The notes beneath the pieces are model-generated. The model worked only from the letters and a program-made list of their open reading frames with translations, had not been told where the DNA came from and made no database searches. From a virus: a DNA stretch of 25,846 nt. Location of the stretch: positions 1 to 25,846 of the IMG/VR virus record IMGVR_UViG_3300034104_002635; one strand, written 5' to 3'. Shown piece by piece: positions 1,981-25,754 of the stretch. The number at the start of each line of letters is the position of its first letter. The first letter of the stretch is position 1. A program made the position numbers and the translations under genes.

Positions 1981-4900
1981 ATGCCTAGGTTCCGCGTTAA
2001 GTCCCCAGATGGAACAATGTATGAGGTGAATGCACCTGAAGGGGCGACCCAGCAGGATGCTATCGCATACGTGCAGGCAAATGCTTCGAGCATTCCGAAA
2101 GCTGAAACCTCCGTCCTCCGTGACGTGGGTGGCGCGCTCGTGCGCGGCGCTGGTCAGATCGTATCTCTTCCCGGCCAGCTTGCCGGCCTTGTTACCGGCG
2201 ACATGGACAACATCTCTACGCGCGCCGGTCGGTCTGTCGAGGAGTTCGGCGAAGAGCTTCAGACGGAGGCTTTCCGTGAGCGCCAGCGCCAGCAGGCGGC
2301 GCGCGTTGAAGAGGCCGGGAAGGAAGGCTTCCTCTCTGGCTTCGGGCAACAGGCCAAAGAACTACTGACGGATCCTCTGTCGCTGGCTGCTGGCATCGCA
2401 CAGACGGCGCCGGCTATGATCGGTACGGGCGGCGCTGGCCTTGCTGGTCGCGCTCTGGCTGGACGTCTGATTGGCCAGCAGGCAGCAAAGCGTGGCGCTC
2501 TGGTAGGCGCTGCCACTGGCGAGTCGGCCATCGTTGGTGGCGACGCGGCGCAGGCTACCTATGACCGCGTGAGCCAGATGCCGCAGGAAGTGGTGGCACG
2601 CTCAGACGCATATCAGGCAGCCATCGCTGAAGGGGCAACACCTGAAGAGGCGCGCAATGCTGCGGCTATCTCTGCTGCCCGTCGCGCTGCCGCAGTCGCC
2701 GCTCCGATTGCTGCCGCCACTGGGCCGCTTGGTCTTGAAGCCGCGCTGTTGACCGGTGGCGTGCGTCGGGGTGTTCTTCGCGGCGGTGCTGAAGGTGCCA
2801 TTCGTGAAGGCGGCACGGAAGTCGTTCAGGAAACCGGGCAGGGCGTTGCTGAGAACATCGGCGCGCAGGCCATCGATCCGAACGTCGCATTGACCGAAGA
2901 TCTCGGCGGGCGCGCGGCTGCTGGCCTGATCCTTGGCGGCACGATGGGTGGTGGAGCAGGCGCTATTAGCGGGCTGCGTGGGCCGGAAGCTGAGCCGGAA
3001 GCTGAGCCGCCTCCTCCGCCGCCGCCCCCGGCTGGGGAGCCTGAACCTGAGCTTGGCGTCCCGGCTACGCCGTTCGGCGCTCCTCCCGCCTCTGAGCCGC
3101 CGCCGTCTCGCCCTGCTGGTGAGACCGTTACGATTGAAGACGACGAAGTAACTATTGAATATCCGGATGGCAGGCTTGAGACCATCCCCCGTGAGGAGTG
3201 GGATGCAAGACAGAAGGCGGCTGCTCCTCCGGTTGAAACGCCTGCCGCTGAGCCTGTGGCTGAACCGGTCGCTGAGCCTGTGGCTGAGCCTGTGGCTGAG
3301 CCTGTGGCAGCAGCTGTGCCAGAGCCGACGACAGAACCCGCGCCCAGCCCTAACAACACGGAAAAGCGTTCGCAGGTTGGCGTTGTTACGTTCGATCAGA
3401 AATCCGGCATTGGGCAGGTGCCTTACAATCAGAACGTAGACTACAGAGGCTTCACGGCGATGATGAGGCCGTCGAAGTTCCTTGAGCTTGGCGCCGATCT
3501 GGAGGCGCCTCTGCAGAGCAGCCTTGATTATCTCACCAAGGAAATCTCTTCAGGGAAACCTGTAGGCTCTCCATTCTTGATTGTAGATTTTGAAACGGGC
3601 AAGGTCAGCGGTCACGACGGTCGCCATCGCATGACGGTGATTCGGGATCTCAATAACGATCAACCCGTCCCGGTCCATTTTTTTGGAAAGGGAGAGCAGC
3701 GGGCAAGGTCTCTCGACGCTGACAAGATTCGCTCATTTGCCGCCAACCTGACCAGCGAGAACGGTCGTCCGTCTGCTGACAATTTTTCTGAAGCGTTTCT
3801 GCAGGGGACGACCGTTGGTGCTACACCCTCCGCGCCTTCCACTGAACCCGTGTCTAGGTATGCATCGGTCGAAACGCCTTCTGGTCCGATTGATATAACG
3901 CCTCCGAAGGGATCCATATCTGCCACTCCGATTGAGGACGTCGAGCCGATCACGCCTGAGCAGTTCGCCGCTGCGGAGACTGCGACCGCTCAAATTCAAA
4001 AGATGATTGCCGGCAAGACGATGCAGCAGGTGGCGCGCGAACTGGGTCAGAATGCCATCCTCGACACCACTCGCACCATCATGCCGCGTGTTGCAAACAT
4101 TTTGGATGAGTTCGAGAAAGTTGGTATCCAGCTTCGCATTGGCGTTCAGACTAAGGGCAAGCAGGGCCTGCCCGGCATTCAGCTTAAAACGACTGAGCGG
4201 GGTCAGACTTCTTGGCGATTGCGGGAACCGTCGGTGAGCGTCGTTGTGGGCGGCATGGATGCGATTATCCCCGGCACAGCTGAAAGAACTCTGGCTCACG
4301 AGCTTATCCACGCGGTTACTATACTTGCGATTGATAAGGCGGATAAACTCCCTCCCAACTCTGAAATCAGCAAGGCGGTTAAAGATTTGAAGGCCCTGTC
4401 TAGGGTCGTTGCAAAGAGGATGCGTGAAGACGAGAAAGCTGGGACGCTTGGATGGACTAAGAAGTTTAGGCTTTACCGTCAAGATCCCAACGAGATACTC
4501 GCGTGGGGCCTGACTGACAGCAATTTTCAGAACTATCTGAAGACCATCCCGACCAAGACGGGCAATGCGTTCACCGACTTCGTGCGCTACATCGGTAAAC
4601 TGCTTGGCGTGGGTCCAAAAGATCAGAACGCACTCGCTCGGCTGATTGAGATTTCTGACAGGATCATTCCAGAAAGTCAGGCGGGGATTGCTGATGTGAC
4701 CGCTGGCGTTGTGGCGTCTGCAGTTGAGTTTGGGGGGATTCCGTCATCACCCCCTTCGCCCACGCCGCCATCACCCCCGCCTCCTCCGCAGCAGCCCCCG
4801 CCGCCACCTCCTCCGCAGCAGCCTCCGCCGCAGCAGCCTGCCCCGTCGCCGCCGCCTCCCATCACTCCGACCAAAGAGACGCGCGTCGAAGGGTGGGCCC

Positions 4901-7653
4901 GCAAGATCGTCGACCGCTTCGAACGTCTGCGCGTAGTGCAAAACCTTGGCCAGCTGCGCGCTGGCATCGAGGGTTTCTACGAGGCTGCCCGCAAGTTCGA
5001 TAGCCGTGCCGGTGAACTGATGGCGAAGTTCAACCGGGACTACTTCCAGCCCATTGAAAAGATCATGAAGGAGGCTGGGCTCAATCTGGAGACGGTCGAC
5101 GCCTTCCTCTATGCCCGCGCCGCGCCGGCTCGTAACGCGCGCCTGAAGGCTAAGGCAGAGAACGAGATCCGCGCCAAGATGGAGAACAAAATCCGCACAG
5201 AGATGGAGGCTGATGGCGCTGCCGAAGCTGACATTCAAGCGGCCATCGCTGACGCGGATGCTGACATTCAGGCGGCGATTGCAAAGGCCGCAGCCGATGG
5301 CAAGATTCCTGAAGCCGGCTCCGGCATGACCACGCAGGAAGCCACCGACATCATGAACGGCTTCCGGGGTCAGGATTACTTCCCGGCCCTTGAGCGCATC
5401 GGCGAGATCTTCAACCGTGCCAACAAGGAGCGGATGGAGAATAACATCCAGCGCGGCCTCGTGTCCCGTGAGATCGGCGAGCAGCTGCTGCGCGAAGAGC
5501 CAGACTACGTCCCGATGAAGGGCTTTGTCTTCGACGAGAACCTGACTGAGCCCGCTGAGGACTTCGAGGACGTGATGGGCTACGGCGGCAGCGGCTTCGG
5601 TGTCAGCGTCCGCGAGTGGTACGATACGCGCGGTCGCACCAGTCTGGGCTTCTCTCCGCTTGGCACGTTTGTCTCCGACGTGGGCACGTCCATCGTTCGC
5701 GGCGAGCGCAACCGCGTTGGCCAGAAGCTGATGACGTTCTTCATCGATAACCCGTCTGAGTCGTGGAAGGTGTTCAGCTATCGGAACCCGCCGCGTAATC
5801 GGAACGGCGACATCCAGCGCCCGTCGCCGTTTGACCCGAACTTCATGGTGGTGAAGCGCGGCGGCGACACGTTCTACCTGCGCATCGATGACCCCCTGTT
5901 GGCGAAGGCTGCGAAGAACCTGAACCCGCAGCAGATGAACTCGCTCCTGCAGATTTCGAGCAACCTGACGCGCATGCTGTCACGCTCGTTCACGACGGCG
6001 AACCCGGACTTCTTCGTGCCGAACGTCTTCCGCGATCTGCAGTCCGCGGCGCTGAACCTTGGTGCTGAGGCGCCCGGTCTGCTGAAGGCGTTCAGGGATA
6101 AGATTAAGGACGGCAAGGCATTCCGTAGTGTCGCCGCCTTCGAGTATGGCCGTGAGGGTGGAGATCCCGCGCTGCGCGAACTGTACGAGCAGTTCAAACT
6201 CGACGGTGGATCGGTGTCGTGGGTGCAGCGCGAGACGCCGCAAGAGGCCGCGGCTCGGATCCAGAAGGATCTGAAGACGGTCAATGACAGCCTGAAGGAT
6301 TTGAAGGACGCCCGCAGCGCCAAGCAGGCTATCGAAGCTGTGTGGAATCCGACCGGCAAGGGCTTCCGCGCGATGGTTGGCGCCCTCGAAAGCACCAACG
6401 CCACCTTCGAAAACAGTGTCCGCTTCGCCGCTTACAGGGCGGCGCTCGAAATCGGCATGAGCCGTGATCAGGCGGCTATGATTTCCCGTGAGGCGACCGT
6501 GGACTTCAACCGTCGGGGCGAGGCCGGCGCTCTGCTGAACGCTCTGTACGCCTTCTTCAATGCCGGCATTCAGGGTAGTGTCCGCACCGCGCGGGCGCTG
6601 TCGAACAACCCGTTGAAGACCGGCAAGCTGTCCACCACGCAGGCGGCGCTGCTCGGCATGATGACCACGGCTGCCACGCTGGCAGCTGCGAACGCGGCCA
6701 TGTCCGACGAGGACGACGACGGCAAGCTCTTCTGGGACAAGATCCCGGACTACGAGAAAGAGCGCAACCTCATCATCATGAACCCGCTGGATGGGAAGAC
6801 CTATACCAAGATCCCGATGCCCTACGGCTTTGGCTTCTTCCCGTATCTGGCAACCCGGACGATGGATGCCGCCCGTCGCGGTGACGATCTCGGCGCTGTC
6901 GGTCTGGACATAGCAACTGCCGGCCTTGGCAACTTCTCGCCAGTGCAGTTCAGTGCCGGCAACATCCCCAGTTCGATTGCCCGCGCGGCAACGCCGACGA
7001 TGGGCAAGCCGTTCGTTGAACTCATGCTCAACGAGAACTTCATGGGCAAGCCGATCTACAATGAGCCGTTCGACAAGGGTCAGTCCTACGCCTCTGTCGC
7101 CCGGTTCAATACGCCCGAAGGATATAAAGAACTGTCCCAGTTCCTGAACGACATCAGCGGCGGAGAGGGTAAGCTCAAGGGCAACCTGAATGCCCCTGCT
7201 GAGAGCTTCGAATACCTCACAGAGTTTGCCTTCGGTGGCGTGACCAATCTGGCCAAGTCACTCTATCGGACGGGCGAAGAGGGTGATGCCGTGGCCGCTC
7301 CTGTGGTTCGTCGCCTTGTTGGCCAGCCGGGTAAGGGGCGCAACGTGGGCGAGTATTACGAGCGCGAAGAGCGGGCACGCGTCGTGAACCAGCAGATGAA
7401 GGAACTGACCGGTCTTGAGAGGCGTGCGCTGATCGAGAAGTTCCCGGCGGAAACCAATCCGCGTGTCCAGTCGGCCTTGACCGCTACCCGCTCTGCGGTT
7501 CGTAAACTGAACGAAGAGCGCAAGCGCATTCGGAATCTGGACATCGATGAGGGCGTGAAGGCTGAGCGCCTTGAGGCTCTTCGGGAGCGCACCGATGCGG
7601 AGTTCGTGCGCTTCAACCGGATCTACAATCAGGTGGAGCAGGCGACCCGTTAA
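1981..7653 (+). CDS. Giant polyvalent internal virion protein (ParB-like, HEXXH zincin and LPD38-like regions)
   Basis: 1890 residues. The N-terminus (1-35) matches the 'MPxFxVxxPDGxxYxVxAPEGA' opening of phage internal virion proteins. Ala/Gly-rich hydrophobic stretches follow (about 128-168 and 310-330). A Pro/Glu linker includes five AEPV repeats (423-442). A ParB/sulfiredoxin-like region (about 460-590) has the motif GHDGRHR at 544-550. Next is a zinc-metallopeptidase motif HELIH at 773-777 with a candidate third ligand E838 in DPNEILAW. A second Pro/Gln-rich linker (921-965) leads to long helices and an LPD38-like region (about 1315-1575). Such 'polyvalent' proteins are packaged in podovirus heads and ejected with DNA, and the peptidase may act in the envelope or host. 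Domain identities are from motif reading; catalytic activity is inferred. Confidence 0.82.
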   Translation: MPRFRVKSPDGTMYEVNAPEGATQQDAIAYVQANASSIPKAETSVLRDVGGALVRGAGQIVSLPGQLAGLVTGDMDNISTRAGRSVEEFGEELQTEAFRERQRQQAARVEEAGKEGFLSGFGQQAKELLTDPLSLAAGIAQTAPAMIGTGGAGLAGRALAGRLIGQQAAKRGALVGAATGESAIVGGDAAQATYDRVSQMPQEVVARSDAYQAAIAEGATPEEARNAAAISAARRAAAVAAPIAAATGPLGLEAALLTGGVRRGVLRGGAEGAIREGGTEVVQETGQGVAENIGAQAIDPNVALTEDLGGRAAAGLILGGTMGGGAGAISGLRGPEAEPEAEPPPPPPPPAGEPEPELGVPATPFGAPPASEPPPSRPAGETVTIEDDEVTIEYPDGRLETIPREEWDARQKAAAPPVETPAAEPVAEPVAEPVAEPVAEPVAAAVPEPTTEPAPSPNNTEKRSQVGVVTFDQKSGIGQVPYNQNVDYRGFTAMMRPSKFLELGADLEAPLQSSLDYLTKEISSGKPVGSPFLIVDFETGKVSGHDGRHRMTVIRDLNNDQPVPVHFFGKGEQRARSLDADKIRSFAANLTSENGRPSADNFSEAFLQGTTVGATPSAPSTEPVSRYASVETPSGPIDITPPKGSISATPIEDVEPITPEQFAAAETATAQIQKMIAGKTMQQVARELGQNAILDTTRTIMPRVANILDEFEKVGIQLRIGVQTKGKQGLPGIQLKTTERGQTSWRLREPSVSVVVGGMDAIIPGTAERTLAHELIHAVTILAIDKADKLPPNSEISKAVKDLKALSRVVAKRMREDEKAGTLGWTKKFRLYRQDPNEILAWGLTDSNFQNYLKTIPTKTGNAFTDFVRYIGKLLGVGPKDQNALARLIEISDRIIPESQAGIADVTAGVVASAVEFGGIPSSPPSPTPPSPPPPPQQPPPPPPPQQPPPQQPAPSPPPPITPTKETRVEGWARKIVDRFERLRVVQNLGQLRAGIEGFYEAARKFDSRAGELMAKFNRDYFQPIEKIMKEAGLNLETVDAFLYARAAPARNARLKAKAENEIRAKMENKIRTEMEADGAAEADIQAAIADADADIQAAIAKAAADGKIPEAGSGMTTQEATDIMNGFRGQDYFPALERIGEIFNRANKERMENNIQRGLVSREIGEQLLREEPDYVPMKGFVFDENLTEPAEDFEDVMGYGGSGFGVSVREWYDTRGRTSLGFSPLGTFVSDVGTSIVRGERNRVGQKLMTFFIDNPSESWKVFSYRNPPRNRNGDIQRPSPFDPNFMVVKRGGDTFYLRIDDPLLAKAAKNLNPQQMNSLLQISSNLTRMLSRSFTTANPDFFVPNVFRDLQSAALNLGAEAPGLLKAFRDKIKDGKAFRSVAAFEYGREGGDPALRELYEQFKLDGGSVSWVQRETPQEAAARIQKDLKTVNDSLKDLKDARSAKQAIEAVWNPTGKGFRAMVGALESTNATFENSVRFAAYRAALEIGMSRDQAAMISREATVDFNRRGEAGALLNALYAFFNAGIQGSVRTARALSNNPLKTGKLSTTQAALLGMMTTAATLAAANAAMSDEDDDGKLFWDKIPDYEKERNLIIMNPLDGKTYTKIPMPYGFGFFPYLATRTMDAARRGDDLGAVGLDIATAGLGNFSPVQFSAGNIPSSIARAATPTMGKPFVELMLNENFMGKPIYNEPFDKGQSYASVARFNTPEGYKELSQFLNDISGGEGKLKGNLNAPAESFEYLTEFAFGGVTNLAKSLYRTGEEGDAVAAPVVRRLVGQPGKGRNVGEYYEREERARVVNQQMKELTGLERRALIEKFPAETNPRVQSALTATRSAVRKLNEERKRIRNLDIDEGVKAERLEALRERTDAEFVRFNRIYNQVEQATR
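3247..3309 (+). repeat. In-frame tandem repeat encoding AEPV units
   Basis: Five consecutive 12-base units of the type GCTGAGCCTGTG encode AEPV repeats inside the Pro/Glu linker of the giant virion protein. Units differ only at synonymous positions, indicating recent slippage or unequal recombination in a flexible linker. Confidence 0.85.
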
Positions 7654-9184: not shown

Positions 9185-10119
9185 TTTGACACCGTCACTT
9201 TCTTGTAGCCGGAGCGAGCGCCGTAGAACGTGCCGATCATCTGCTCCGTGATCTCAGTGCCGACCGACGCCTTAATGGTGCTGATCGACAGCTTGTGGTC
9301 GCCGCACTTCACGACGGCCTTGTCCTGCGACGTGTTCATCTTCTTCATCTCCTCGATGCTGAGGGTCAGAAGCTCGGTCTTCGCTGCGTCCTTCTTGGCC
9401 TTGGCCTCCTTCTCAATCGCAGCGTTCTCCTGATACGTCTGGAACAAGTGGGCATGCTCCGTGGTGAGCGTCACCTCAGACATGGGCACGAAGTCCAGCA
9501 GGCGCACGACGGCGTCTCCGTCCTTATTGAAGTCCACCGGTGGTTCTTCGCCTGCCCGGACGCTGTCCCAGAACTTCGCGACATGAGATTTAATTTTCGA
9601 AATTATTTCCACGCTGCGAGGAACCTTCATGCGGCGTGGCTCGTTCCGTATCAGCGCAATCAGCCAGCCATACTCAGCGCCAGTGCAAGCCATCTGGTGC
9701 AGAACCTGAAGGACGTAGTTGTCGGGAGCGCAGGTGATCGTGTCACCTTCGTATTCCCAGCCGTCACCGTGGGCCGACCACTTGATCTCGACCGGGTGAC
9801 CACCGTCCGTCTGGAAATCCAGCGATGCGCCCATGCCGGGGCAGTCATCCGCGGTATAGTAATCGACGACCTTCTCGATCTTCATGTCCCAACGGTGCGC
9901 CGCCCAGTTAGCGATGCCGCTTTCGAGGAAGGTGCCAGCCTGAACAGACTTGTTGCCCGAGAGATCTTCGGGTGGCAGCTTGCCAGACTTCTCCATCCAC
10001 AGCTGCCATAGCGTCGTGAACGGGGACATGTCGAACAGCGCCGCGACTTCGCTTGCGCCGATGTGTTGTGATCTTATCTCATGCCAGTGCGTCTGGTCAC
10101 GGACGGATATTGCTCCCAT
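9181..10119 (-). CDS. YqaJ-type viral recombinase exonuclease (PD-(D/E)XK)
   Basis: 312 residues. All main motifs of the YqaJ/lambda-exo family are present: GASE at 21-24, the conserved Glu in GTFLE (E66), GASLD...VEIKW with D101, E111 and K113 as metal/catalytic residues, and Q138/Q142 in LQVLHQM. These enzymes resect dsDNA 5' to 3' to leave ssDNA for the annealase, here RecT. The C-terminal 100 residues are a Lys/Glu-rich coiled coil followed by a small beta-rich end. The start is supported by GGAGG placed about five bases before the ATG. It is coupled to the following 55-aa gene by a GTGA overlap. Confidence 0.92.
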   Translation of the reverse strand: MGAISVRDQTHWHEIRSQHIGASEVAALFDMSPFTTLWQLWMEKSGKLPPEDLSGNKSVQAGTFLESGIANWAAHRWDMKIEKVVDYYTADDCPGMGASLDFQTDGGHPVEIKWSAHGDGWEYEGDTITCAPDNYVLQVLHQMACTGAEYGWLIALIRNEPRRMKVPRSVEIISKIKSHVAKFWDSVRAGEEPPVDFNKDGDAVVRLLDFVPMSEVTLTTEHAHLFQTYQENAAIEKEAKAKKDAAKTELLTLSIEEMKKMNTSQDKAVVKCGDHKLSISTIKASVGTEITEQMIGTFYGARSGYKKVTVSK

Positions 10120-10165
10120 GTATGCCTCCGGTCTTGTTGTTGTGGGCTTGCAGGCATACCGCTGT

Positions 10166-10486
10166 CTACGGTTTTATGTCAAGCCCCTTGTAAACGTCAT
10201 CGAGAGAGCGGGCTAAGATATAGATTCCGCCGCGCCTTTCCCATGCAAGCTGCCACGCAGCCTGCACCTGACGCTGCTTACCGCGCTGTGCTTTCACCTC
10301 GATGGCAAACGCGCGACCGGGGGTAATGACACCCAGCAAGTCCGGGGTTCCCTCCGGCGCCGACTGAATCACGCGAGCCCCGCCGTCCAGAGGGCGGAAC
10401 TTACCCACGTTGATGCGGAACATCATGATGTCCGTGCGCCGCCCTAGGGCGAGACGGATCTCGGCTTGGAGGATTGCTTCTTTCAT
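10166..10486 (-). CDS. VRR-NUC domain nuclease
   Basis: 106 residues, the usual size of stand-alone phage VRR-NUC proteins. An N-terminal helix carries E9, followed by the motif GTPDLLGVI with D49, then FAIEVKAQRGKQ with E63 and K65, and a following Gln-rich helix. This is the PD-(D/E)XK layout of the family, which includes FAN1 and phage Holliday-junction or flap nucleases. It overlaps the stop of the upstream 285-aa gene (ATGA) and precedes the exonuclease, so it probably resolves or trims branched replication and recombination intermediates. Confidence 0.9.
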   Translation of the reverse strand: MKEAILQAEIRLALGRRTDIMMFRINVGKFRPLDGGARVIQSAPEGTPDLLGVITPGRAFAIEVKAQRGKQRQVQAAWQLAWERRGGIYILARSLDDVYKGLDIKP

Positions 10487-11340
10487 GCCCGCGACTCCAC
10501 CTTGTAATCCTTCACCACGATGCCGTCCGTGCCGTTAATCATTGCGGCTCTTACCCACGACTTGCGACCAGACTTGTATGTCCGCCAATGGCCACGACGC
10601 AGGTGAGCGACGGGTGATGCGTGTGTGCCGCCCTTGCTGACCTCCGACACCCGGCGCTTCCCGGTGATCGTGATGACCTTGTAGGTGTAGAGCGGCTTCT
10701 TCCCACGAATCCGGCGCTGCCTTGCAAGCTCGGCGTCGGGACGGTGGTCGGTGAACTCGGTGTCGTATTCCGCCAGAGCCTTGCAGAAGTCCATGTAAAC
10801 GGACAGTTCTTGGTTTAGGTTCCGCAACTCGGCGGTGATGTAGAGATCCAAAGACATCCAGCTGCTAATCGCTCCATCCCACACCTCCCCCGCTGCAAGA
10901 ATGTCGTCGGTGAGAGCCTTCGCCTCCGACCGGCTTAGCGTGATCTCCTTACCGTAGTAGAACCGGCAATAGATCGCTGGCGGTATCCAGCAAGCCTTGT
11001 GGTCCCTAAAAAAGGCGGGGAAGAGCACGACGCTGTCACCCTCATCAACCGCCATAACCAAACGTTTTGAGGATCGAAATTCACCGGGCTTCAACACGCT
11101 GTCGGCTGTCACGAATTCAATAACGGTAGTTGGGAACGGTGGCTTCAACACATCTGTGGATACGATCACGCTGTCACCAGAATCTGGCAGCACGTACCCG
11201 TCCTCAGGTAGTTTAAAGTGAACTGCATGTGACTGCAGCCGTTTGCGCAGCCGCCCGAAAAACGCAGCCCCCTGCGGCTTTGTTTTCATATACCGCGTCA
11301 GATCATCGCAGAACTCATCCGAAAAATAACCGATGCTCAT
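10483..11340 (-). CDS. Phage protein of unknown function with basic C-terminal HLRRGHWR region
   Basis: 285 residues. The N-terminal two-thirds are mixed alpha/beta and acidic, with no enzyme motif I recognise. The C-terminal 85 residues are strongly basic and aromatic (KKPLYTYKVITI, then HLRRGHWRTYKSGRKSWVR, then a GTDGIVVKDY end). I associate this ending with conserved phage proteins of unknown role, and it could bind nucleic acid. It sits inside the nuclease/helicase operon, overlapping both neighbours by ATGA, so a DNA replication or recombination accessory role is plausible by context only. Confidence 0.75.
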   Translation of the reverse strand: MSIGYFSDEFCDDLTRYMKTKPQGAAFFGRLRKRLQSHAVHFKLPEDGYVLPDSGDSVIVSTDVLKPPFPTTVIEFVTADSVLKPGEFRSSKRLVMAVDEGDSVVLFPAFFRDHKACWIPPAIYCRFYYGKEITLSRSEAKALTDDILAAGEVWDGAISSWMSLDLYITAELRNLNQELSVYMDFCKALAEYDTEFTDHRPDAELARQRRIRGKKPLYTYKVITITGKRRVSEVSKGGTHASPVAHLRRGHWRTYKSGRKSWVRAAMINGTDGIVVKDYKVESRA

Positions 11341-11561
11341 TGCAGCGTCACCCCTTCCGTCTCACCGCTCAGGCATTCCATTGCGGCGTTGACCGCTGCG
11401 GCCATCGCCACGAAGCACCTGCTGGCCTCGATCTCCTCGATGCCGCGCTCTTCCTGCCATTCATCCAGTGCCCGCAGCAGACCAACTGACAGCGCCTGTA
11501 TCAGCGAGAGTGGTATCAAGACCGCATCGAGCTCTGGCTCGTTCCCATCGTCATCTTCCAT
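11337..11561 (-). CDS. Small acidic helical phage protein, unknown
   Basis: 74 residues, acidic N-terminus (MEDDDGNEPELD) followed by three predicted helices (LIQALSVGLLRALDEW; ASRCFVAMAAAVNAAMECL). No known motif. Its first 46 bases overlap the end of the upstream helicase gene in another frame, and its stop overlaps the next ATG (ATGA). A GAGAGGA Shine-Dalgarno lies about eight bases before the ATG. It may be a partner of the helicase, which is only a positional inference. Confidence 0.62.
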   Translation of the reverse strand: MEDDDGNEPELDAVLIPLSLIQALSVGLLRALDEWQEERGIEEIEASRCFVAMAAAVNAAMECLSGETEGVTLQ

Positions 11562-13003
11562 ATTGCTGTCCTCTCTTCTTCGGTTAGCCCGTTCGTGGTC
11601 TGAGCGTTGCGCGCCCCCACCTTCTTCGCAATGCGCGCAGCCTCCTGCCCGCAGATGACATTGAACGCCCAGTGCGTCGGATTCTTATACCCACGCTTAC
11701 GCGCGACGCTGGTCAGCACCTTGAACTTGTTCTGGAGCATGCCCTCTGGGGTCGCGACATTCTCCTCACCCTCACGGGCCATCATCACCAGATCGCCATC
11801 GACGTGCTTCACCATCCGTGGCTTCACGGGATAGACATGACCACACACAGGGCAGGTCGGGCTCGGCTTGTGCATGGCGAAGCAGGCGGTGCAGGTTCGC
11901 ACCGTCTCAGCCTTGTCGCCTTTGCCACGTTCCTGAACGAACCCATCAGCCAGCGACCACTCGCGGTCGTCGTCGATGAACCCATGCCGCGCCGTGTTGC
12001 CAGCGTGGTCGAGGATGATGGTCTTCTCCTTGTCAGGGTGGGGTCTGATCGCGCGCCCGCATTGCTGCAGGTATAGCCCCAGAGACTTCGTCGGGCGCAG
12101 CAGGATCGCCACCTCCACAGCCGGCAGGTCGAAGCCCTCGCTCACCAGATCGCAGCTGGTTAGCACCTGCACCCGGCCTTCCTCGAACGCCTTCAGGACG
12201 CCATCGCGTTCCTCTTCATTCATGCCGCCGTCGATGTGGCTAGCCGTGTAGCCAGCCTCCCGGAATTCTGCAGCCACATCCTTGGCGTGCCTCACGCTCA
12301 CGCAGAACGCGATAGCCTTCTTGCCCGACGCGTATTTCCCGTAGTGCTTGACTGCACTCCCGGTGATGACGGTCTTCACCATCGCCGCCTCAAGCTGCTT
12401 CTGCACGTAGTCGCCCATGCGCGTGCCCACTCCGTTCAGATCCGGCGCGCTCGGCGCATAGACGATAGCGTGGGATAGGAACCCCTGAGCGGTCAATTCA
12501 GCCACCGTAGGGCCCATCACCATGTCGTCGAACATCTGACCCAGCCCCTTGCCGTCGAGGCGCTCAGGGGTGGCTGTGACGCCCAATACGCGGGCACGCG
12601 GGAAACCAATGACGACCTTGCCCCAGCTGGAGTCAGGCGTGAAGTGATGCGCCTCGTCGCCGATGATGAGATCGAACGGCTGCATGCCTTTGATTCGCTT
12701 CACGAGCGTGAACACGGATGCCACGACGACGTTCGCCGTAGGCACGCCGCGATACCCGCCGGCCATCACCGCATGCGCCACGCCGACCTTCTTCAAGGCG
12801 GCACTGATCTGCTTCAGCAGTTCGCGGCGGTGGGCCACGATCAGGATGCGCTTGTTGTTCCGGGCCATGCCGGCGGCGATGTATGAAAAGATCACTGTCT
12901 TCCCTGAACCGGTCGGGCTGACCAGCAGGGTGTGCTTGTGACCAGAGCGAAAGCTATCGCGCACCGCCTGCACGGCGGATTCTTGGTAATCTCGAAGCTG
13001 CAT
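11516..13003 (-). CDS. SF2 DEAD/DEAH-box helicase with C-terminal zinc finger
   Basis: 495 residues from the ATG at 13003, chosen because AAGGA lies about six bases upstream and the protein then begins with the Q-motif-like MQLRDYQESAV. In-frame starts at 13027 and 13099 have no good ribosome site. Motif I SPTGSGKT at 29-36, motif II DEAH at 116-119, motif III-like GVTATP, and motif VI QQCGRAIRPHPDKEK are all present. A CxxC...CxxC finger (CTAC...CPVC) lies at about 368-386. The architecture matches phage helicases related to UvsW/RecG-like or Type III Res enzymes, ATP-driven translocases that remodel branched DNA. Neighbouring nuclease genes agree with this. Confidence 0.92.
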   Translation of the reverse strand: MQLRDYQESAVQAVRDSFRSGHKHTLLVSPTGSGKTVIFSYIAAGMARNNKRILIVAHRRELLKQISAALKKVGVAHAVMAGGYRGVPTANVVVASVFTLVKRIKGMQPFDLIIGDEAHHFTPDSSWGKVVIGFPRARVLGVTATPERLDGKGLGQMFDDMVMGPTVAELTAQGFLSHAIVYAPSAPDLNGVGTRMGDYVQKQLEAAMVKTVITGSAVKHYGKYASGKKAIAFCVSVRHAKDVAAEFREAGYTASHIDGGMNEEERDGVLKAFEEGRVQVLTSCDLVSEGFDLPAVEVAILLRPTKSLGLYLQQCGRAIRPHPDKEKTIILDHAGNTARHGFIDDDREWSLADGFVQERGKGDKAETVRTCTACFAMHKPSPTCPVCGHVYPVKPRMVKHVDGDLVMMAREGEENVATPEGMLQNKFKVLTSVARKRGYKNPTHWAFNVICGQEAARIAKKVGARNAQTTNGLTEEERTAIWKMTMGTSQSSMRS

Positions 13004-18528: not shown

Positions 18529-18764
18529 ATTTCCCCCTCCCAATCGATTCCGTCGGTCAGTCCGTAAATCGCGTCACGCAAATCCTTCGGCAGCGCCGCC
18601 GCATCCACAGACACGCCCAGTATCTCAAGCTCATCTATCTCAGCGGTCTCCTGCACAGGCTCCCACCATGATGGTGAGCGCGGCACACCGTAGTCGGCGC
18701 GCTCCATCTGGCAGACGAACGTCACCCGCAGGTCGTCGCTCTCGTATGTGGCTGTCGCAATCAT
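18525..18764 (-). CDS. Small acidic phage protein (79 aa), unknown
   Basis: ATG at 18764 has GGAG eight bases upstream. A GTG at 18773 that overlaps the previous stop (GTGA) is the alternative and would add three residues. The product is beta-rich at first (IATATYESDDLRVTFVCQM) with a Trp pair (SPSWWEPV), then helical and acidic (LPKDLRDAIYGLTDGIDWEGEI). Acidic, small and early, which is common in phage inhibitors, but no specific evidence exists. Confidence 0.62.
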   Translation of the reverse strand: MIATATYESDDLRVTFVCQMERADYGVPRSPSWWEPVQETAEIDELEILGVSVDAAALPKDLRDAIYGLTDGIDWEGEI

Positions 18765-18769
18765 CTCAT

Positions 18770-19189
18770 TCACTCCGTCACGGTGATAAAACTTCTCGTC
18801 GGTATCAGCACCACGCGCTCGACATCGCGGCTGTCGCCCCGGTCATAGCGGCCCCCGGTGGATACCGTGTGTTCGACAGGCACCTGCACGATGCCCAGTT
18901 CATCCGTCCACTGCACCGCCAGCAGGGCGTCAGCGCCCCTCGCGTCGATGGCGCAGAGCGCATTGTATTTATGCTCACTCAGCAGATAGGTTTCGTATCG
19001 CGCGCGCTCATTCCTACGCACCTTGATCTCAACGACACGGGGTCGCGGCTGGCAGCGGAAAACGGCATCGTATGGCGCGAACGGGTCTCGCGGCGCAGTG
19101 GCTGTCAAGCCGAAGGCGCGCTCCAGTTTTGCGATGACGCCCGCCTGATTGGCGCGATCCGCATCGCTTTCATAGACGGGTCGCGTCAT
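18770..19189 (-). CDS. PD-(D/E)XK-like small nuclease-fold protein
   Basis: 139 residues. PYDAVF (D41) followed by VVEIKVRRNE (E54, K56) and the helix YETYLLSEHKYNAL gives the D...ExK spacing of a restriction-endonuclease-like fold; the N-terminal helix carries Glu/Asp candidates. It has a strong GGAGGGGGA ribosome site and overlaps the previous gene by ATGA. Small phage enzymes of this type can be recombination, packaging or host-DNA-degrading nucleases. The fold call is from motif spacing only; activity is unproven. Confidence 0.68.
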   Translation of the reverse strand: MTRPVYESDADRANQAGVIAKLERAFGLTATAPRDPFAPYDAVFRCQPRPRVVEIKVRRNERARYETYLLSEHKYNALCAIDARGADALLAVQWTDELGIVQVPVEHTVSTGGRYDRGDSRDVERVVLIPTRSFITVTE

Positions 19190-23920: not shown

Positions 23921-23946
23921 AAAAAGCCCGCCGGTTAGGGCGGGCT
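23921..23946 (-). terminator. Intrinsic terminator of the three-gene leftward operon
   Basis: Read on the - strand: perfect 8-bp stem AGCCCGCC / GGCGGGCT with a six-base loop followed directly by TTTT and C. It lies 22 bases after the stop of the 75-aa gene, a classic position. It would keep this operon's transcripts out of the control region to its left. Confidence 0.85.
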
Positions 23947-23968
23947 AGGTGGGGGTGGGGGATGTGGA

Positions 23969-24196
23969 TCAGGCTGTCAGGCTGCAAGCCTTCAGGAACG
24001 TCTCGCGTTCGAAGCGGGGATTGTCAGCCGCCAGCGCGTCAGCCAGCCGGAGAGCCGCAAGGTGCGCGCCTTGGCTCTCGCCAGAATTAAAGGTGCGGCC
24101 ATCGTCTGACAGCCGTTCGCTGTCGCCATTGCTGGCGATATGGGCCAGCGTCTCCCGGAGGGCGGCGGCAATCAGGATATAATCTTTGCGCGTCAT
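23969..24196 (-). CDS. Small phage protein of the 'RKDY...NPRF' type (75 aa)
   Basis: ATG at 24196, with GGGGAGACC upstream. MTRKDYILIAAALRETLAHI at the start and ADNPRFERETFLKAC at the end are a pattern I know from many small phage and prophage proteins of unknown function. Helical and soluble. Last gene of a three-gene operon, followed by an intrinsic terminator. Confidence 0.78.
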   Translation of the reverse strand: MTRKDYILIAAALRETLAHIASNGDSERLSDDGRTFNSGESQGAHLAALRLADALAADNPRFERETFLKACSLTA

Positions 24197-24219
24197 GGTG
24201 GTGGTCTCCCCTCTTGCGG

Positions 24220-24576
24220 TTAGAAGCTGTTGCGTTCGGCGAGGGCGTTCAGCGCCTCCTGCTGCTCCCGGGTGAACTTCCCCCAGAAATCGGCGACACA
24301 GTCCACGCCCCAGCATGGCTCCTCGCTCTCCTCAGGGGAGGGGGCGGTATACTCTGCCACGCAAGCCCATAGAGCCTCGTAGAGCGCCCCTGTGACGCCT
24401 TCCCAGCACTCGGCCACCTCATCGGGGCGGATGATGTCGAAGGCATCGTGTGGCTCAATTTCTAACGGCTCCTCAGCGCACCCGGCGCGCCAATCGTGAT
24501 AACCGAAACACTGGTCGCAGAAGTGGTCGCTGGCCGACTCGGTGTGCGGCTCGAAGGTGTGGTGGTTCTCGTTCAT
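24220..24576 (-). CDS. Acidic Cys/His-rich phage protein (118 aa)
   Basis: ATG at 24576, with AGGAGACC upstream. The N-terminus has FCDQCFGYHDWRAGC, a CxxC plus later Cys/His residues that could hold a metal ion. The rest is strongly acidic (DEVAECWEGV, PSPEESEEP) and helical at the end (FTREQQEALNALAE). Acidic, early and small, so DNA mimicry or host-protein inhibition is possible, but no direct evidence. Middle gene of the operon. Confidence 0.68.
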   Translation of the reverse strand: MNENHHTFEPHTESASDHFCDQCFGYHDWRAGCAEEPLEIEPHDAFDIIRPDEVAECWEGVTGALYEALWACVAEYTAPSPEESEEPCWGVDCVADFWGKFTREQQEALNALAERNSF

Positions 24577-24628: not shown

Positions 24629-24865
24629 TTAGATTGTGATGCCGTGCTGCGCGGCCAGAGCTTTACCGGCGTCAGTAAAGAACAGCCAAGTGTGCCCTTC
24701 TTCAATGTCGGTTGTGATTAGACCGGCCACCTTCAGCTGAGTAAGGTTGCCACGCTCTGCTTTGTCGCCGCCCACGTTGCCGCCCACCAACGGTGTGCCG
24801 TTCCAGTTGCCAGCGTCGTCGGCGTAGGCGAGAAAGACCTTCAGGCTCGTTTCGGTAATGTTCAT
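24629..24865 (-). CDS. Winged-helix-like small phage protein (78 aa)
   Basis: ATG at 24865, with AAGGA about nine bases upstream. An N-terminal helix (TETSLKVFLAYADDAGNW) and a C-terminal stretch NLTQLKVAGLITTD...TWLFFTDAGKALAAQHGI have the helix-strand-strand ('recognition helix plus wing') layout of MarR-like winged helices: L..L...GLI followed by a beta hairpin and T..GK. Members in other phages are unassigned. As first gene of a self-contained operon next to both control regions, it may be a transcription regulator; inferred. Confidence 0.72.
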   Translation of the reverse strand: MNITETSLKVFLAYADDAGNWNGTPLVGGNVGGDKAERGNLTQLKVAGLITTDIEEGHTWLFFTDAGKALAAQHGITI

Positions 24866-24929
24866 CTGTCCGTTCCTTTTCCACTGGATGATGGGCGTGA
24901 GTTGCCCAGCGGGCCTATGCCCACTGCCA

Positions 24930-24957
24930 CCAATACAGCAAGCAACAATGGTGTCAA
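24930..24957 (-). promoter_or_regulatory. Promoter for the three-gene leftward operon
   Basis: On the - strand a perfect -35 TTGACA (24952-24957) and a weaker -10 TATTGG (24930-24935), 16 bases apart. Transcription would start near 24923, leaving a leader of about 58 bases before the ATG at 24865. Fits a host-type sigma-70 early promoter. Confidence 0.6.
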
Positions 24958-25012
24958 CAGGGGGCGTCATCACCTAGGCGCAGCATCGCACCGGGCAGCG
25001 AGACCGCGCACT

Positions 25013-25042
25013 GCCCTGCCCGTTGCTGGCTGGGGGCAGGGC
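25013..25042. repeat. 9-bp perfect inverted repeat with 12-base loop
   Basis: GCCCTGCCC / GGGCAGGGC. No T-tract follows on either strand, so it is a structural or protein-binding element rather than a standard terminator. Confidence 0.7.
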
Positions 25043-25057
25043 CGGCGCCCTCTGGCA

Positions 25058-25080
25058 CCCCCCACCCACCCACTTCCCCC
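25058..25080 (-). other. G-quadruplex motif on the - strand
   Basis: Four G-tracts of 5, 3, 3 and 6 with loops AAGT, T and T. Short loops predict a stable quadruplex. Seen directly in sequence; folding is inferred. Confidence 0.6.
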
Positions 25081-25184
25081 GGCTTGGCCGCCCTTCGTAG
25101 CTATATATACCCACCCTCAGGCGTATTTCGTTCTGAATCCGTCCCGGCCTTCTCCAGACCCCCCACCCCCTAAAACACCCCCCT

Positions 25185-25212
25185 TTGTTTTTAGCTGCGG
25201 TTCCATTATGTT
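25185..25212 (+). promoter_or_regulatory. Weak candidate promoter for terminase
   Basis: TTGTTT (25185-25190) and TATGTT (25207-25212), 16 bases apart, about 30 bases before the terminase ATG. Matches are partial; a late gene may also depend on a phage activator. Confidence 0.25.
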
Positions 25213-25241
25213 TATTTTGTAGTTTTGCCGGGGCGCTGATT

Positions 25242-25754
25242 ATGTTTGATGACACGGGTGATTTGGATGTGATAGGTCCTGCTGAGCGGGACGCGATTTT
25301 TGCGCGTGTTTATGTTGAGCAGCGTGCGTTGAAGAAGGGGAATGCGGCTGAGATTGCTTGTGTTCGGGCTGGGATTACGAGTCCTGAGTTGAACATGTCG
25401 ATTGTCGCGTCGAGGCAGCTGGCGCGGCCTGAGGTTCAGCGTTTGATTATGGCGGCTGAGGCTTCGGGGGTTGAGGTTGAGCGGCGGGAATATACGCGGG
25501 ATTTGTTTTTGGATGAGTTGCAGGCTGTTGTTCAGGCGGCGATGGACAAGGGTGCGTATCCGAGTGCGATTAGTGCGGTGAAGACGCAGGCGCAGTTGCT
25601 GGGGATGTTGGATCAGACGGTGAATGTGAACCACAGTGTGAGCGCGAAGGATCTGGATTTGGCGACGCTCAGGGCGATGGTTGCGGATCGGGCGAGGCCG
25701 GTGAAGGTGATTGAGGGGACGTTGGTCCGGGGGATTGGGGATGGCGATGACTGA
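25242..25754 (+). CDS. terS: Terminase small subunit
   Basis: 170 residues from the ATG at 25242; the frame extends upstream, but an earlier start would add an unrelated hydrophobic stretch with no ribosome site. An N-terminal HTH-like unit reads GNAAEIACVRAGITSPELNMSI followed by ASRQLARPEVQRLI, the classic phage small-terminase pattern. A helical middle (DELQAVVQAAMDKGAYPSAI) with KTQAQLLGML follows, then a short C-terminal tail. TerS oligomers bind the packaging site and hand DNA to the large subunit. Codon third positions are strikingly rich in G and T compared with the other genes. The next gene overlaps its end. Confidence 0.83.
   Translation: MFDDTGDLDVIGPAERDAIFARVYVEQRALKKGNAAEIACVRAGITSPELNMSIVASRQLARPEVQRLIMAAEASGVEVERREYTRDLFLDELQAVVQAAMDKGAYPSAISAVKTQAQLLGMLDQTVNVNHSVSAKDLDLATLRAMVADRARPVKVIEGTLVRGIGDGDD

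Follow-up and report, generated by a model that had tools for sequence, protein, structure and literature searches.

Three conserved C-rich boxes upstream of a candidate small-terminase gene may mark where a group of phages starts DNA packing

What might be the function of a C-rich spacer that lies between two diverging gene blocks in a phage genome? The stretch of DNA analyzed here, referred to as the window, comprises the 25,846 bases of a virus record and is most likely a phage fragment; related contigs were drawn from IMG/VR. Structural genes of the window run rightward up to position 7,653, and a leftward block from ~24,865 encodes RecT, a RecE/YqaJ exonuclease, an SF2 helicase, a primase, and small genes. 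The first ORF candidate of this leftward early block is located at 24629–24865 on the minus strand, with an ATG at 24865 (it was scanned from 24862, one codon in), and a family search with it gave no match. A 170-residue terS candidate (25242–25754, plus strand) heads the rightward packaging/structural operon. The spacer is thus a divergent junction, with a leftward early (replication/recombination) block on one side and rightward terS on the other. Elsewhere in the window, a 1,890-residue ORF (1981–7653) has matches in large phage families without a known function, as well as partial matches in DarB-like and virion RNA polymerase families, and a 139-residue protein (18770–19189) matches Pfam PDDEXK_14, a putative phage endonuclease.

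The gene at 25242–25754 is designated a candidate terS by its position and by weak family matches. In relatives, genes for terL (Terminase_6N/6C) and portal (SU10_portal) are found downstream of terS. For example, contig L013 carries terS (9995–10510), a 117-residue ORF (10507–10860), and terL (10861–12396) in that order, placing the candidate shortly upstream of terL in one operon. Two of six terS relatives matched Terminase_2, the best E-value (3.5e-4) falling short of the Pfam cut-off. A family search with the TerS protein of the window itself gave no match, and a TerS structure model of low confidence (pLDDT 63) had none at E ≤ 0.001 in a fold search of the PDB. Rfam and tRNA scans were empty, and blastn against a phage collection gave no match.

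An earlier note on this DNA had described a four-tract G motif, further C-runs, and a perfect inverted repeat in the spacer, and had suggested that such a structure-prone stretch could be a packaging or replication-pausing site. The described features are all present. On the minus strand, the G motif reads GGGGGAAGTGGGTGGGTGGGGGG (25080–25058), with loops of 4, 1, and 1 nt and a G4Hunter mean of −2.56. The C-runs of 25159–25183 consist of C6 (25159–25164), C5 (25166–25170), and C6 (25178–25183), and their G4Hunter value of −2.76 is the strongest in the window. The 9-bp inverted repeat (25013–25042; arms 25013–25021 and 25034–25042) lies just to the left of the span that the note had given. A second strong four-tract G motif, GGGCGGGCTAGGTGGGGGTGGGGG, occurs on the plus strand at 23938–23961, to the left of a leftward ORF (23969–24316). 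In 1000 dinucleotide shuffles of 24863–25241 (379 nt), a four-tract motif arose somewhere in 261, a G4Hunter value of 2.56 was reached by 15, and three runs of C6 or longer were seen in 69. Taken by itself, the G4 motif is thus unremarkable, being weakly unusual relative to shuffles; what goes beyond chance is its conservation in relatives.

Relatives were gathered by several scans. A terS scan yielded 33 loci and a primase scan 44, while DNA-pattern scans returned 22, 26, and 24 stretches. From two TerL scans, with 315 and 185 matches, the best 80 of each were used, on largely shared contigs; those of the first scan, plus five more from the second, make up a TerL set of 85 contigs. From these sources, 41 distinct versions of the element were extracted under the rule that box3 lie at +80 to +120 from box1, such that wider-spaced versions were left out. 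Thirty-nine were compared, and 26 of them are <85% identical to one another.

What is conserved in these relatives is a set of three C-rich boxes, given here for the plus strand. Box1 is CCCCCACCCACCCA (25059–25072), and the G motif corresponds to its complement plus the next C-run. Box2 is TATATATACCCACCCTCAGGCGTATTTC (25102–25129), for which many relatives have TATATATACCCACTCTCNCCCACATTTC, with CCCAC at +51 from box1. Box3 is ACCCCCCACCCCCTAAAACACCCCCCTTTGTTTTT (25158–25192), the point where contigs of relatives end, and it is followed by a conserved right flank (25193–25219) composed of AGCTGCGGTTCCAT and then AT-rich sequence. The 14-mer of box1, would-be loop bases included, is exact in 38 of the 39 compared versions, a set limited to those whose box1 has no more than two mismatches. 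A count on contigs not chosen by box1 is available from the TerL set (best 80 of 315, plus five): among the matches listed, 47 contigs extend 1600 nt or more upstream. An exact box1 with the TATA stretch at the right distance is present in 40 of them, three carry box1 with one mismatch, and four (L138, L159, L219, and L220) have no box1 with up to two mismatches. The left flank holds 0.2–0.5 bits per base, versus up to 2.0 in the boxes.

Spacing is conserved as well. The gap between box1 and box2 was 37 nt in 26/26 matches of a scan that permitted 20–50 nt, and in 25 of the 26 non-redundant versions the final TATA of box2 begins at +45 or +47. Box3 is mostly 99–100 nt from box1; it is found at +98 to +100 in 24 of these 26, from which versions beyond +120 were left out, and each of the 18 versions with a CCCCTTT has it at +120 to +122. 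Exceptions occur between box2 and box3. Box3 is ~12 nt farther away in L032, L033, and L066, extra bases are present in L149 and L138, and an ORF sits between the two boxes in L023 and L125. The fixed 37-nt gap, together with the variable spacing of box3, indicates two modules, a rigid one made up of box1 and box2 and a looser one consisting of box3. The ORFs of L023 (~9350 to 9850) and L125 (~2000 onward) occupy the same place in two different phages; judged by eye, the inserted ORF looks HNH-endonuclease-like.

The element also tends to occur once per genome. The box2 core has a single exact copy in the window, and no more than one exact box1 was found per record in 22 records searched, except for G019 with a second exact copy. 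Both motifs are essentially single-copy in large contigs of 43–56 kb. A search of cellular genomes (genome_contigs) for box1-N31-ATACCCACTC gave no exact match.

Could the conserved property be DNA folding into a G-quadruplex (or a cruciform) at which replication or packaging would pause, along the lines of the earlier note? A canonical motif is present in the window, three G-tracts are retained at box1 in nearly all versions, and two-tetrad folds would be possible in all of them. However, four tracts occur at box1 in only 15 of the 26 non-redundant versions and at box3 in 1 of 26 (allowing loops up to 7), and loop bases of box1 are invariant, which is the reverse of tracts being kept while loops vary. 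The G-quadruplex was accordingly rejected as a conserved feature. So was the inverted repeat, since neither its place nor its sequence is kept: most relatives have no counterpart of the window's 9-bp repeat with the same sequence and place, and their best arms average 6.2 versus 5.3 in shuffles. Formation of a G-quadruplex or cruciform is thus not a conserved property of the element. In addition, no listed TerL contig was seen to stop at box1, which is the better G-quadruplex. Folding is therefore a very improbable explanation. The G-tracts, whose lack of conservation would by the note's own account have spoken against its reading, are conserved, but as exact sequence and not as G-quadruplex potential.

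A different kind of evidence comes from the places where contigs end. Among the 85 TerL contigs listed, which were sorted into end classes partly by hand, the end lies to the right of box3 in 26, inside it in seven, and shortly to its left in five, while 47 pass through. Of the 59 listed contigs that extend from the TerL side as far as box3, seven thus stop inside its 34 bp, versus 0.21 or 0.72 expected from the density of ends on the left or right; the corresponding Poisson values of 3e-9 and 1e-5 are optimistic, since the 34-bp stretch was picked after the cluster was seen. Start points precede CCCCTTT by 13 nt in L100, L111, and L122, 12 nt in L109, 18 nt in L018, and 20 nt in L105, and L139 starts in a divergent version of box3.

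Several observations argue against a cut at box3. The start points are scattered over 8 nt (12–20 nt before CCCCTTT); 47 of the 59 listed contigs run through the box; and one circular assembly (G001, with a 123-bp end overlap) has box3 inside. Mirror ends are missing as well, in that only L188 among left-side contigs ends in the element, and does so in box2 instead of box3. Scans with box1–box2 or with box2 found no left-only contigs, although contigs from the left side are without hallmark genes, and a virus collection may contain too few of them. Also counting against the contig-end evidence is that a strong C-rich triple run is able to depress sequencing coverage. It is possible, though less likely than not, that the ends are only an assembly or sequencing artefact of C-runs, an explanation that touches this one line of evidence and not the element itself. 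All seven box3 ends do fall in C-runs. Elsewhere, by contrast, such runs attract no ends: of 143 contig ends examined, the 136 apart from these seven include 6 with a run of C4+ or G4+ within the first 14 nt (4.4%, against a background of 5.4%), and L137, which has much longer C-runs nearby, is unbroken there.

Two contigs carry insertions at this place. In L202, the left half of box3 flanks a stretch of ~250 bp (minus strand, ~18700–18940) at either side; a similar ~250-bp stretch in L061 (~5780–6030) is bounded in part, by the last ~9 bases of that half. The join is at the same CCCCTGATAT point, where contigs begin. The insertion repeats all of box3 in L202 and part of it in L061, and its right half is a different one. 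These joins resemble what end-joining at a cut site would give.

The position of the boxes at the divergent junction of the gene map fits another function, which is the main rival to a packaging site. The element could be a divergent promoter/operator, whose boxes bind a phage regulator that toggles transcription between leftward early genes and the rightward late operon, both of them read by host RNA polymerase. We consider this rival serious, if unlikely. Both the TATA-like box2 and the AT-rich stretch past box3 are conserved, and the ORF that parts box2 and box3 in L023 and L125 suits two separable modules. The right flank of L024 and L025 has a sigma70-like TTGTTT-17-TATAAT (z of 3.0–3.4), and TTGACA is found on the minus strand ~100–190 nt left of box1 in several relatives. 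Host transcription is also in keeping with the finding of no clear RNA polymerase gene among the scanned window proteins, the 1,890-residue protein being only a partial match to the virion RNA polymerase family. However, good sigma70-like −35/−10 pairs are confined to a few relatives, and most others are not clearly above shuffles. Promoter-like pairs as a whole barely exceed shuffles (mean z of 0.79 on the right and 0.69 on the left), and their places differ. The single-copy nature of box1 and box2 in the 43–56 kb contigs likewise argues against an operator, and the ending of contigs in box3 is left unexplained. Palindromes resembling TCACA-N6-TGTGA occur ~40–120 nt left of box1 in L060, L066, L123, and L202; these we take to be similar to CRP-type operators.

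A replication origin, in which the C-rich boxes serve as initiator sites beside an AT-rich unwinding stretch, is improbable. The boxes are accompanied by an AT-rich flank, are normally single copy, and have a cumulative GC-skew minimum nearby. In each of the five large contigs (G001, G002, G003, G012, and G013), that minimum falls ~1.6–2.8 kb to the left of the element, which is weak evidence against an origin located right at the boxes. Moreover, the skew tracks gene direction, and no initiator gene was identified.

The best-supported explanation, held tentatively and at somewhat below an even chance, is that the three boxes form a composite, sequence-specific site for terminase recognition and cutting, predicted from sequence to be cos- or pac-like. 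This reading is preferred because it explains together the position of the boxes directly upstream of terS-terL-portal, their single copy, their rigid spacing, and the contig ends in box3. Counting against it are the breaking of the box2–box3 spacing by an ORF (L023 and L125) or extra bases, the lack of a constant two-fold symmetry in the common type of box3, and the absence of the boxes from the terS-upstream bases read in the cultured relative CRP-901. The packaging site that the earlier note had put forward therefore stands as the leading candidate, while the structural reason offered for it, involving G-tracts and the inverted repeat, does not. Subunits of TerS would dock on box1 and box2 from the same face of the DNA (in steps of ~50 bp, or near five turns), with box3 usually about five more helical turns away. 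TerL held at the boxes would then cut in or beside box3, around ACCCCCCAC/CCCCTGATATG in relatives, to yield a chromosome end adjoining terS. Neither docking nor cutting would require G-quadruplex folding. Sequence, spacing, conservation, and the excess of contig ends are observed, and from them we infer TerS binding, TerL cutting, and the direction of packaging.

How does such a site compare with known ones? The pac sites of headful phages typically lie within the small-terminase gene. The element is pac-like in being a putative terminase-recognized site near terS, and differs in being located in the spacer. In phage lambda, as described in PMC9026076, TerS binds three R sites, of which R2 is inverted and R3 begins at bp 50, the distance between cosN and cosB is crucial, and cosN is two-fold symmetric. 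Like lambda cos in that account, the element lies upstream of terS, is single copy (G019 again excepted), comprises several short repeated sites, and appears to depend on distance; its ~50-bp steps recall the 50 bp that separate R3 from the left cohesive end. In contrast, its order is box1-box2-(cut candidate)-terS versus cosN-cosB-terS in lambda, such that boxes 1 and 2 lie beyond box3 and not between the cut and terS, and all of its boxes point in the same direction, unlike the inverted R2. The common type of box3 has no constant dyad, and arms such as CACCCCC...GGGGGTG occur in only some other versions (e.g., L063 and L157). Dyads of the common type (CTAAAA...TTTTAG and GATATA...TATATC) were set aside as chance, since their centers differ between relatives. 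With order, orientation, and symmetry all different, the element was not filed as a lambda-type cos. It is possible, though doubtful, that it represents a packaging site of undescribed layout, in which TerS would bind same-direction boxes about five turns apart and TerL would cut the third, terS-side box. The docking boxes would then stay on the chromosome end opposite to that in lambda, and mobile genes and cut-site joins would insert at the site.

Judged by portal and TerL, the closest cultured relatives include the Roseobacter phages CRP-901 and CRP-902 and the pelagiphages HTVC023P and HTVC027P. TerL identity is 33–34% (CRP-901, HTVC023P, and HTVC027P), and portal identity is 36–40%. In CRP-901, the one cultured relative read for boxes, they are absent from the 548 bases before terS held in its record. 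An assembly gap in CRP-901 (PCR primers given in PMC10149686) was rejected as a clue to its terminus; the gap is at 11,184–12,110 and not at terS. A limited literature search on phage G-quadruplexes, cos, terminase, and packaging sites found no published description of the element, and the portions of PMC9599517 and PMC8443750 consulted say nothing on it.

If the boxes are indeed a protein site, the element would illustrate how a G-quadruplex motif can arise as a side effect of such a site, with selection keeping the exact sequence and not G-quadruplex potential. The three boxes may mark where these phages start to pack their DNA. If so, genome ends across a large group of uncultured phages would have a recognizable sequence signature, and those ends could be found from contigs alone.
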